The notes beneath the pieces are model-generated. The model made no database searches and had not been told where the DNA came from. It saw nothing but the letters and a program-made list of their open reading frames with translations. Both the position numbers and the translations under genes were made by a program. From positions 127,290 to 191,289 of the forward strand of contig JACPOS010000023.1 in the NCBI GenBank assembly GCA_016191395.1: DNA of 64,000 nucleotides, written 5' to 3'. Positions within the stretch are counted from its first letter, which is position 1; every line of letters begins with the position of its first letter. The stretch comes from Chloroflexota bacterium (lineage in GTDB: Bacteria; Chloroflexota; Limnocylindria; Limnocylindrales; CSP1-4). Below are positions 3,487 to 11,141 of this stretch, in pieces.

Positions 3487-4407
3487 ATGACAAGCGCCTT
3501 CGGCCCTCGTTCCGCACGCCTCGCGCGGCCTGCGCGACGCGGGTCGGCGGCCGCGATCTTGATGCTCCTCGCGCTCGTGGCCGCGTGCGCCCAGGCCGGC
3601 TCATCCGCAACTCCCGGGGCCTCGGCTGGCCCCAGCAGCGGCCCGACCCCGACATCGACTCCGGTCGCCGACGGCATCCAGCATCCAACCGGCACTACCG
3701 ACGTGCTGCTCCGGATGGAATCCGGCGGCGGCTTCGTGCCGATGGACTTCTTCGCCACGAACGCGCCGAGCTTCACGCTTTACGGTGACGGCACCGTGGT
3801 CTTCCGGGACCCGACGATCAGCCCGCCCGACCCAGGTGACGGACTCAACCGCCCGGTCCCGTTCCAGACGATCCGGCTCGACGAGGAGGGCATCCAGGCG
3901 CTGCTTGCCGACGCGATCGGCCGCGGGGGACTCGGCATCGCGGCGGGTCCCTACATGGGCCTGGGAGCGGACCTCCCGACCACGATCTTCACGATCACCG
4001 CTGATGGACGCACCAAGGTTGTCAGGGTCACGCCACTGTCGCCCGACATGCATCCGCAGAATGCCGCGATCGTGGCGGCGCTCGCGGCATTTGCCGAGCG
4101 GCTCGATGGGTTCGGTGGCTCCGTGGCCGGTGAGCAGGCCTACGTGCCCCCGGCCTTCCGGGGCGTGCTCTCGTCGATCGATCGGCCGCTCGGGCCTGTG
4201 ATCGCCTGGCCGTGGTCCGACATCAAGCCGACCGACTTCACGGCAGGCGAGAACAGCATCCTGCTGCTTCGGACGATGACGCCGGCAGACGTCGCCAAGC
4301 TCGACGTCAAGTCGATCGACGGTGGGCTCACCGGCATGACGCTCCAGCTGGATGCGAAGCTCTACTCGCTGGCTCTTCGCCCGCTGCTCCCAGACGAGAA
4401 GAAGTAG
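3487..4407 (+). CDS. Predicted lipoprotein, unknown function
   Basis: A 306-residue exported protein. The signal peptide has a basic start, a hydrophobic core and the lipobox LVAAC near residue 31. A Gly/Ser/Thr/Pro-rich spacer typical of surface lipoproteins follows. The mature part (from about residue 60) has no motif I recognise. The start at 3487 is chosen because it places the signal peptide at the N-terminus; the frame is open upstream to 3310. It faces dnaB tail to tail, with only 3 nt between the stop codons. Confidence 0.7.
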   Translation: MTSAFGPRSARLARPARRGSAAAILMLLALVAACAQAGSSATPGASAGPSSGPTPTSTPVADGIQHPTGTTDVLLRMESGGGFVPMDFFATNAPSFTLYGDGTVVFRDPTISPPDPGDGLNRPVPFQTIRLDEEGIQALLADAIGRGGLGIAAGPYMGLGADLPTTIFTITADGRTKVVRVTPLSPDMHPQNAAIVAALAAFAERLDGFGGSVAGEQAYVPPAFRGVLSSIDRPLGPVIAWPWSDIKPTDFTAGENSILLLRTMTPADVAKLDVKSIDGGLTGMTLQLDAKLYSLALRPLLPDEKK

Positions 4408-5909: not shown

Positions 5910-6560
5910 TCAGTCCAACCTGCGAATCACGCCGATGAGCTTGCCCTGGATGCGCACGTCGTCGTAGAACTGCGGCGGGTAGGCCGCGTTGGCAGGCTGC
6001 AGGCGGACCTTGTCCCGCTCCTTGAAGAAGCGCTTGAGGGTGACGCCGTTGTCGTCAACCTGGGCGACCACGATGTCGCCGTTGCGGGCGGTCGTTTGGG
6101 GGCGGATCAGGACGAAGTCGCCGTCCGCGATGTGCTCCTCGATCATCGAGTCGCCGCGGACGCGCAGGACGTAGGCGTCACCACTCGGCGCAAGCAGATC
6201 CGGGACGGCCATCGTCTCCGATGCGTCCTGGTACGCCTCGATCGGGCCGCCGGCTGCGATCTCGCCAACCACGACGAGGACGTGCGCCTCCGCGGTCACG
6301 GATTGCGGGACGAGCTCCGTGGTGAGGCCCATCTCCATCGCCGCAGTGGGCGTGAGCCGGATCGCGCGTGATTGCGCGGCGCCACGCTCCAGGAAGCCCT
6401 CGCGCTCCAGCATCTGCAGGTGGTGGTGAACGGCGGACGTGGAGCTGAGGCCCACCGCCAGCGCGATCTCGCGAACCGAGGGCGGGTAGCCCCGCGATCG
6501 CAGCGTCGCCGCGATGTAGTGGAGGATCTTCAGCTTCCGGTCTGCGTCGTGTCTCGTCAC
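5910..6560 (-). CDS. lexA: LexA SOS repressor / S24 autopeptidase
   Basis: A 216-residue SOS repressor. The N-terminal winged HTH (residues 5-70, PPSVREIALAVGLSS) binds the SOS box. The C-terminal S24 peptidase has Ser138 (GDSM) and Lys177 (TLKRF), with the Ala103-Gly104 self-cleavage bond in EIAAGGP. RecA filament triggers cleavage. An in-frame ATG exists at 6596, but it lies inside the -10 element of the promoter at 6592-6619. The GTG at 6560, with GGGAG 6 nt upstream, is therefore the more likely start. The SOS box indicates autoregulation. Confidence 0.95.
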   Translation of the reverse strand: MTRHDADRKLKILHYIAATLRSRGYPPSVREIALAVGLSSTSAVHHHLQMLEREGFLERGAAQSRAIRLTPTAAMEMGLTTELVPQSVTAEAHVLVVVGEIAAGGPIEAYQDASETMAVPDLLAPSGDAYVLRVRGDSMIEEHIADGDFVLIRPQTTARNGDIVVAQVDDNGVTLKRFFKERDKVRLQPANAAYPPQFYDDVRIQGKLIGVIRRLD

Positions 6561-6591
6561 TCGTGGCTCCCATGGGGCGATGGCCATGGGC

Positions 6592-6619
6592 ATCATACCG
6601 AACGGGTGTTCGATGTCAA
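6592..6619 (-). promoter_or_regulatory. lexA promoter with SOS box between -35 and -10
   Basis: Read on the minus strand, a perfect -35 TTGACA (6614-6619) is followed after 16 nt by -10 TATGAT (6592-6597). The spacer holds CGAACNNNNGTTCG (6599-6612), the Gram-positive/actinobacterial-type LexA box. LexA bound there would block RNA polymerase directly, which is the classic autoregulatory arrangement. The box ends 39 nt from the lexA GTG start. Confidence 0.9.
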
Positions 6620-9377: not shown

Positions 9378-10742
9378 TTGACCTGGCACGAGGCGGTCGA
9401 CAATGGCCGGGCGACACCCGGCGCCACGGAGCGGGCCGGCCCGCGCACGATCCTCCACGTCGACCTGGACGCGTTCTTCGCGTCGGTGGAGCAGCGCGAC
9501 CACCCGGAGCTGCGCGGGAAGCCTGTCGCGGTGGGCCTCGGCGGTTCCAACGATCGCGGTGTCGTCAGCGCAGCGTCCTACGAGGCGCGCAAATTCGGAG
9601 TGCATTCGGCGATGCCGATCCGGACCGCGCGGCGGCTCTGCCCGGACTGCATCTTCGTGCCGGTGGACGGGGCCAGGTACCAGCGCGTGAGCCGCGAGGT
9701 CATCGCGATCCTGCGGCGGTTCACGCCGCTCGTGGAGCCGGTCTCGATCGACGAGGCATTCCTCGACGTCACCGCGTCGCGCGCGCTGTTCGGCGACGGC
9801 GAGACGATCGCGCGCCGGATCAAGGCGGCAGTTCGCGAGGAGGTGCAGCTGACGATCTCCGTCGGCGTGGCGGCCACGAAGCTCGTCGCCAAGATCGGCA
9901 GCGACCTGCGCAAGCCGGACGGCCTCGTCGTCGTGGAGCCCGGCACGGAGGCGGGATTCCTTGCTCCCCTGCCGATCTCGCGCCTGTGGGGCGTCGGGCC
10001 GTCGACGGCGGCGGCGCTGCGCGACTTCAAGGTCGTCACGATCGGCGACCTCGCCGCGCTCGATCGGTCGGCGCTCGTCCGGCGGTTCGGGAAGCACGGC
10101 GCCTCGCTCGTCGATCGGGCGCACGGCGTGGATCCCGACCCGGTCGATGACCCGGACGGGGCCAAGTCGGTGGGCCACGAGCACACGTTCGACGAGGACA
10201 CCGCCGACCCCGAGGTGCTCGAGCGAACGCTGTTGGCGATGGCCGAGGGCGTGTCAGGCCGGCTGCGTCACGCCGGATTGAAGGCAGGCACGGTCACGGT
10301 GAAGATCCGCGACACGGCCTTCAACACGATCACCCGCCAGCGCGGGCTGCCCGAGCCGTCGGATCTCACGGAGCCGATCTGGCGCACGGCGCTGGAGCTC
10401 GCCCGGCCGGAGATGAAGGGCAAGAAGATCCGGCTCCTCGGCGTGACGGCCTCGGGGTTCGGGGTCAAGAAGCAGTTGGGGCTGTTCGAGGTGGAGGACG
10501 ACCGGCAGCGGCGGGTGGTGCGCGCCGCTGACGAGGTGCGGGAGCGCTTCGGGACGCGGGCGATCACCCGGGCGCGGCTGCTCCGGACGGGGCTCCCGGC
10601 ACCGTTCGAGCGGGACCTTGGAACGGCGGTCGAGCGGCGCGGCGAGCACGCCGAGGATCTCGACAGCGGCGTTGCGCGGCGGCGAAAGCGTCGTGACACA
10701 CAACCTGACACGGCCCCATCGGAGGATGCGTTCGACGAGTAG
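9378..10742 (+). CDS. dinB: DNA polymerase IV (Y-family, DinB)
   Basis: A 454-residue translesion polymerase. Catalytic acidic residues are in HVDLDAFFASVE (Asp29, Asp31) and SIDEAFLDV (Asp125, Glu126). The little-finger domain ends in KKQLGLFEVE, a clear beta-clamp-binding QxxLF motif, followed by a basic, charged tail of about 80 residues that looks disordered. TTG at 9378 is the only in-frame start near the fold and leaves about 23 extra N-terminal residues. I see no LexA box in the 26 nt after rplI. The LexA boxes lie instead just after dinB, so dinB may be constitutive or driven from upstream. Confidence 0.95.
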   Translation: MTWHEAVDNGRATPGATERAGPRTILHVDLDAFFASVEQRDHPELRGKPVAVGLGGSNDRGVVSAASYEARKFGVHSAMPIRTARRLCPDCIFVPVDGARYQRVSREVIAILRRFTPLVEPVSIDEAFLDVTASRALFGDGETIARRIKAAVREEVQLTISVGVAATKLVAKIGSDLRKPDGLVVVEPGTEAGFLAPLPISRLWGVGPSTAAALRDFKVVTIGDLAALDRSALVRRFGKHGASLVDRAHGVDPDPVDDPDGAKSVGHEHTFDEDTADPEVLERTLLAMAEGVSGRLRHAGLKAGTVTVKIRDTAFNTITRQRGLPEPSDLTEPIWRTALELARPEMKGKKIRLLGVTASGFGVKKQLGLFEVEDDRQRRVVRAADEVRERFGTRAITRARLLRTGLPAPFERDLGTAVERRGEHAEDLDSGVARRRKRRDTQPDTAPSEDAFDE

Positions 10743-10749
10743 CCAGGGC

Positions 10750-10805
10750 TTGACATCGAACAGGTGTTCGGTCTAGTCTCTGGGTCGAAACCGAACAGGC
10801 GTTCA
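10750..10805 (+). promoter_or_regulatory. SOS promoter with two tandem LexA boxes
   Basis: -35 TTGACA (10750-10755) and -10 TAGTCT (10774-10779) are separated by 18 nt that contain a perfect LexA box, CGAACAGGTGTTCG (10757-10770). A second, one-mismatch box CGAACAGGCGTTCA (10792-10805) lies 35 bp downstream, over the expected transcript start. The layout matches the lexA promoter in this window. It points away from dinB, toward the small gene at 10863. Confidence 0.88.
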
Positions 10806-10862
10806 CGGCACCAGTGCCCGGTGACCGGAGCTCGCATAGCGCCCCCGAAAAGGAGCTGCGAA

Positions 10863-11141
10863 ATGGCGATGATCCGAGTCGAGCCGGTCGAGGTCCGGGT
10901 TCGAGCCGATTGGTTCGATGGCCGTCCGCGCGAGGTCACCCTCAACGGTCGGCGACTCCGCGTCCTTGACGTCATCGGCGTCCGGGACGAGAGCGCGGCG
11001 TTCCCGGTCGTGACCGGGCCCCGCACGCTCTTCGAGATCGAGACGGCGGACGCCCGCCTGCAGCTGGCGTTCCGCCATCGATCCCGCCGCTGGACGATCG
11101 AGGGCGTCGAGACGCACGAGGCGCAGCTCGCCGCGGCGTAG
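10863..11141 (+). CDS. Small SOS-regulated protein, DUF6504-like
   Basis: A 92-residue cytoplasmic protein, mostly beta strands by pattern: IRVEPVEVRVRADWFDGRPR, then a conserved-looking ITGPRTLFEIET-like strand and a Trp-containing C-terminal hairpin (RRWTIEGVE). It resembles the small DUF6504-type proteins often coded beside Y-family or ImuB/DnaE2 polymerases; that assignment is tentative. AAAAGGAG lies just upstream of the ATG at 10863. Two LexA boxes in its own promoter and its position directly after dinB suggest a DNA-damage role, perhaps as a polymerase accessory. Confidence 0.65.
   Translation: MAMIRVEPVEVRVRADWFDGRPREVTLNGRRLRVLDVIGVRDESAAFPVVTGPRTLFEIETADARLQLAFRHRSRRWTIEGVETHEAQLAAA

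Follow-up and report, generated by a model that had tools for sequence, protein, structure and literature searches.

A small ImuB-C-like gene with a conserved twin LexA-box promoter beside dinB in a class of Chloroflexota

ImuB-C is a superfamily of beta-rich proteins of approximately 80 residues with a conserved C-terminal tryptophan and conserved positive residues, and dinB is the commonest neighbor of its standalone copies, with lexA another frequent one (PMC3765255). In Geobacter, lexA, imuB-C, and polY form a co-transcribed, damage-induced operon, and genomes with such standalone variant systems were reported to have no imuA (PMC6511836). Structurally, ImuB-C has been modelled as a novel barrel with no relative in the PDB, reported to be unlike the SH3 barrel of UmuD' and YolD (PMC12926913). 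Few parts of the mutasome are as poorly understood as standalone ImuB-C.

We analyzed a 64,000-nt stretch of Chloroflexota DNA (the window), part of a 200-kb contig in a 2.42-Mb MAG, in which a small gene follows dinB. Among named genomes, the closest to this MAG are from Chloroflexi, CSP1-4 included, and together with a sister family of 1.1-Mb genomes they suggest a placement in the class Limnocylindria. Like the standalone ImuB-C proteins of the GSU0042 type, encoded in lexA-imuB-C-polY/dinB operons, its product is within or near 80–90 residues, beta-rich, and carries a C-terminal tryptophan (PMC3765255, PMC6511836); it likewise lies beside dinB and lexA, is probably under SOS control, and has as its neighbor a PolY with a RecA-NT-like tail. 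Three features set it apart from that type: the small gene has its own twin-box promoter rather than being part of a LexA-boxed polymerase operon, the protein has diverged too far for Pfam, and the genome also keeps imuA, imuB, and dnaE2 together with a second ImuB-C-like protein. Because standalone ImuB-C beside DinB and LexA has already been published, the kind of system is known; what is new here is a diverged subfamily that has a twin-box promoter to itself and shares the genome with a second ImuB-C-like paralogue, encoded in an imuA-imuB-dnaE2 cassette.

Twin LexA boxes before the small gene

The small gene (10863..11141, + strand) is preceded by two LexA boxes, each supported by sequence, pattern search, and conservation: box 1 (GAACAGGTGTTC, 10758-10769, +) lies inside the promoter spacer and box 2 (GAACAGGCGTTC, 10793-10804, +) over the expected start site. 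An earlier note on this DNA had described a perfect box between -35 and -10 and a second over the start, and both are indeed exact GAAC-N4-GTTC. It had also called the promoter textbook, a description that suits the perfect -35 hexamer (TTGACA, 10750-10755, +) but not the probable -10 (TAGTCT, 10774-10779, +), a weak TAnnnT form 18 bp from the -35 that agrees at just 3/6 positions, which is why a strict sigma-70 scan reported no promoter at the small gene. The sequence further contains a ribosome-binding site, AAGGAG (10850-10855, +). The box is the same as that of the Gram-positive-type LexA regulon of Bacillus and Mycobacterium (PMC3323433), whereas here there are two, spaced at 30–37 bp (extremes 23 and 42).

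Exact GAAC-N4-GTTC occurs three times in the window versus 0.56 expected, a count that none of 100 shuffles reached, and at approximately 27 places in the 2.42-Mb genome, among which the two boxes of the small gene are, by coordinates, the only pair less than 100 bp apart. As in a LexA-regulon gene, the box fits the consensus and overlaps the promoter, and LexA itself is encoded in the window by a boxed gene: lexA (5910..6596, − strand; TIGR00498 above cut-off, with PF01726/PF00717) lies 4 kb from the small gene and is preceded by the third perfect site of the window (6600..6611, no strand assigned).

Orthologues of the small gene were gathered by protein search of whole genomes and named contigs. 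Their upstream regions include 78 distinct ones, which represent three families of Limnocylindria, and two perfect boxes were present in 74 of these. The regions come from related genomes and are not 78 independent events, and the weight of the conservation lies in its span of three families and in divergence to approximately 34% protein identity. The other four regions carried one perfect box and one with a single change (e.g., GTAC or GCAC for GAAC), and none of the 78 had fewer than two boxes with one mismatch allowed in one box. The scan of relatives that the earlier note had proposed therefore found the boxes conserved in every relative examined (78/78, with one mismatch allowed in four). 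Box starts are 33–35 bp apart in 57 of the 74 promoters, and TTGAC stands immediately 5' of box 1 in 73/74. The pair is kept in family f2, in which the small gene and rplI-dinB run divergently, and also in those f4 and f1 genomes whose dinB is not adjacent, indicating that the boxes belong to the small gene. Judged from its sequence, the damage-response switch at the small gene is unusually tight and deeply conserved.

The neighboring dinB (9378..10742, +; Y-family polymerase identified by profile searches and relatives, exact start uncertain) carries no such site. The earlier note had seen no box there, and a wider search bears this out: no LexA box (≤1 core mismatch) was found in the 330 bp upstream of the aligned start in approximately 40 dinB genes from five families, nor any perfect box in the stretch upstream of the window's own dinB.

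Despite this separate control, dinB and the small gene stay together. In all of the 30 first loci dinB is within 1.5 kb of the small gene, which places the gene in the neighborhood known for ImuB-C (dinB/lexA or dnaE2), and an f4 locus has lexA, dinB, and the small gene in a single row, the same three genes as in the damage-induced Geobacter lexA-imuB-C-polY operon (PMC6511836). Across 81 genomes, 65 have both dinB and the small gene, 6 neither, 8 dinB alone (7 of them in families f3/f5), and 2 the small gene alone, in one case at a contig edge; the joint absences are weak evidence because neighbors on MAG contigs get lost together. In a few genomes, dinB is divergent from or not directly adjacent to the small gene. 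Small, tightly repressed SOS genes are often effectors of the division- or replication-inhibitor type, and the independent promoter and the few genomes with a distant dinB would suit such a polymerase-unrelated effector that lies beside dinB by chance, but the persistent dinB linkage and the family link to ImuB-C described below make this very improbable. As a separate observation, one genome has two inverted copies of the small gene less than 800 bp apart (G085:C29:3164-3427(+) and 3662-3925(-)), flanked on both sides by a stretch of dinB, which may be an assembly artefact.

A diverged ImuB-C/DUF6504 protein and its ImuB-linked paralogue

The 92-aa gene model is backed by relatives, nearly all of which begin (M/V)A(M/I/L) in agreement with the ATG at 10863, and by codon-position bias, with 3/1/16 differences at positions 1/2/3 relative to a 92%-identical relative. 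Pfam and NCBIfam searches with the single protein returned no match, including to Peptidase S24 or YolD-like profiles. DUF6504 (PF20114) was matched weakly by 6/20 relatives in Pfam (best E 0.021), no member tested reached the gathering score of PF20114, and no genome of the class passed the cut-off; a HigB_toxin match (E 0.14), below cut-off and in one member only, was dismissed. At the profile level, hhalign of two overlapping samples of the small-protein (dinB-side) family against a set of ImuB-linked DUF6504 proteins gave probabilities of 84% and 94% and scores of 33.7 and 41.3, as compared with maxima of 24.8 and 19.6 over 150 column shuffles. "DUF6504-like," as the earlier note had it, thus describes the family profile but not the single protein.

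The model of the small protein (pLDDT 87.5) has six strands, matching in size and mostly beta content the approximately 80 residues of ImuB-C. In a second confident model, that of the 81-aa ImuB-linked protein discussed below (pLDDT 91.5), the strand order corresponds one-to-one (92-aa/81-aa: 22-27/19-25, 30-43/28-42, 54-61/49-58, 64-71/62-68, 76-84/73-80). No PDB relative of the small protein was found by sequence, and neither model had a significant PDB match by fold, as with ImuB-C (PMC12926913). PF20114 shares the strand order, and its G-P...W/V...R...W columns align with the small protein, in which VRDExAAYP replaces the W...WW signature of DUF6504. W77, R41, and R54 are invariant across the family. 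We assign the small protein to the ImuB-C/DUF6504 superfamily as a standalone and strongly diverged member, linked to it by the profile match, strand order, C-terminal tryptophan, and dinB/lexA neighborhood; its homology rests on profile comparison. That DUF6504 corresponds to ImuB-C we infer from context, the comparison set being ImuB-linked proteins and not the fused ImuB C-terminus. Our literature search returned no paper naming DUF6504, and no fused ImuB or DUF6504 was found in the plasmid collection. In other Chloroflexota, some DUF6504 genes adjoin a Y-family gene and/or dnaE2. Separately, one strongly DUF6504-positive group there has no dinB, imuB, or dnaE2 match within 1.5 kb.

The positively charged R41, R54, R75, and R76 are conserved and, together with the SOS promoter, would be compatible with the role that Aravind and co-workers suggested for ImuB-C, which is to sense damage by binding DNA and to direct repair enzymes generally; ImuB-C is also found with Ku/ligase or SplB (PMC3765255). 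The linkage here, however, is to dinB across three families, and later ImuB-C models show protein-protein contacts (PMC12926913); we consider a general sensor unlikely. UmuD' and YolD/YqjX likewise combine a LexA-controlled small subunit with a Y-family polymerase, which would be a functional parallel, but we found no sequence relation, and the small protein has no autoprotease domain.

The same genome (G000) encodes imuA-imuB-[81-aa ImuB-C-like]-dnaE2 on contig C16, in which imuA and dnaE2 are each preceded by a LexA box. Here imuA is RecA-like (PF00154), imuB encodes a 416-aa Y-family protein, and the 81-aa gene starts in an ATGA overlap with imuB. ImuB is thus split at this locus (L147:2441-3933) into the 416-aa protein and a separate ImuB-C-like gene, with the RecA-like ImuA upstream. 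The 81-aa gene directly follows imuB in 30/30 relative loci, and its product matches DUF6504 proteins beside dnaE2 in other Chloroflexota; a single-protein search with it recovered one dinB-side orthologue (E 6e-4). From these comparisons, we conclude that the dinB-side and ImuB-linked proteins form two paralogous branches within a single superfamily. The two move separately, since five f1 genomes without dinB and the small gene retain the ImuB-linked paralogue.

The presence of a LexA-boxed DnaE2 cassette in the same genome, and the modelling of fused ImuB-C on the PHP domain of DnaE2 (PMC12926913), raise the question of whether the small protein belongs to the ImuA-ImuB-DnaE2 mutasome, the place that ImuB-C has in Mycobacterium models, its adjacency to dinB being historical. 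However, in all 30 loci an ImuB-C-like protein is already encoded within the cassette, directly after imuB, and the reduced f2 genomes retain the small gene in 17/19 cases and the ImuB-linked paralogue in only 2, whereas in f3/f5 the paralogue is present in most genomes and the small gene in none. This distribution makes a role in the DnaE2 mutasome improbable.

A second palindrome and further SOS sites

Upstream of the -35, inside the dinB 3' end, lies a second palindromic element (GTGACACACAACCTGACAC, 10693..10711, +) with the consensus CGTGACA-N7-TGnCACG. It recurs upstream of the -35 (≤1 mismatch) in 51/75 promoters, as compared with approximately 0.3 expected by shuffling in a nearly identical scan, at distances that cluster at 46–51, 55–59, and 65–70 bp. 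Their 10-bp phase concentration is 0.62, with identical copies removed and relatedness uncorrected, a value reached in 0/3000 uniform draws. A palindrome followed by a LexA box was found in 13/61 genomes and never in the reversed control, and by blast all 13 sites are at dinB/the small gene or at an MrfA-like helicase. The copy at the helicase promoter (G000:C3:123527-123545) sits approximately 42 bp before the expected start, which has no -35; this placement is that of a class II activator. We also considered that the palindrome might act as a terminator or reflect constraint on the dinB coding sequence and rejected both, as there is no T run, the arms of the copy here are mismatched, and the relative position of the dinB stop codon varies among relatives. 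The phased spacing suggests a site for an additional activator, and the palindrome is a candidate target for a second regulator of the damage response. Its 7-N7-7 layout and placement resemble those of the Caulobacter WYL activator DriD, which recognizes ATACGAC-N7-GTCGTAT over a poor -35, although the half-sites differ (PMC12340889).

Elsewhere in the genome, the MrfA/HRQ1-like helicase (MZB domain; L154:2110-4449, G000:C3) has a LexA box just 5' of its start, which probably brings mitomycin-type repair into the SOS regulon of this genome. A perfect box lies between uvrB and a divergent gene (G000:C21:5418). For recA (G000:C17:47425), no LexA box, even a near match, was found in the 1.5 kb searched upstream.

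A proposed inducible partner for DinB

DinB of the window has a putative beta-clamp motif, QLGLF (10473..10487, +), and a RecA-NT-like motif, RRVVRAADEVRERFGTRAITRARLL (10509..10583, +), recognized by eye against the genome's own RecA (RAVDAAILTIEKQFGTGSIMKL) and DinB relatives. DinB of f1, f2, and f4 ends with RecA-NT-like ...FGxxAITRARL or a near form, and the tail in f3/f5 is without the ITRARL part (FGDDALDRAS, FGDxALDRAS, or similar), a correlation with the small gene that is confounded with phylogeny. The tail pattern would fit a PolY-RecA-[ImuB-C] complex as proposed previously (PMC6511836, PMC12926913).

Of the two roles that the earlier note had offered, SOS effector or polymerase partner, we favor the latter as the best reading, because the boxes are conserved, dinB is box-less, and the superfamily is tied to translesion polymerases (PMC3765255, PMC6511836). 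The note's word "uncharacterised" applies to this subfamily but not to the superfamily, whose name dates from 2013. We think it reasonably probable that the small gene encodes a LexA-silenced ImuB-C-family accessory subunit, induced to join DinB and RecA as a mutasome. LexA on box 1 would block RNA polymerase at the promoter spacer and LexA on box 2 at the start site, a geometry from which low basal expression and steep induction would be expected. RecA on ssDNA would trigger LexA self-cleavage, allowing the strong -35 promoter to fire and the approximately 90-residue beta-barrel protein to accumulate. DinB, being box-less, is presumably produced without LexA control. Once induced, the small protein would associate with DinB and with RecA bound at the RecA-NT-like tail of DinB, giving a PolY-RecA-[ImuB-C] mutasome, and would bear on DinB activity or access. 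With a tight switch on an ImuB-C relative beside DinB, the damage response here probably governs DinB's helper rather than the polymerase.

In a more elaborate version, which we offer tentatively, DinB is present at all times and is turned into a mutasome by the LexA-repressed ImuB-C-like protein, itself also switched by a second, damage-responsive activator at the phased palindrome that the MrfA-like helicase promoter shares; the two paralogues would serve separate mutasomes, on DinB-RecA and on ImuA-ImuB-DnaE2, respectively. If this is true, SOS acts on an adaptor and not on a polymerase.

We found no SOS study of this Chloroflexota class in the literature searched, and the present analysis provides an outline of its LexA regulon, with indications that damage genes may have a second regulator. 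In this lineage, an ImuB-C-like gene has been uncoupled from the polymerase at the promoter, kept even in 1.1-Mb genomes, and duplicated, and together these features make its role on DinB or DnaE2 directly testable.
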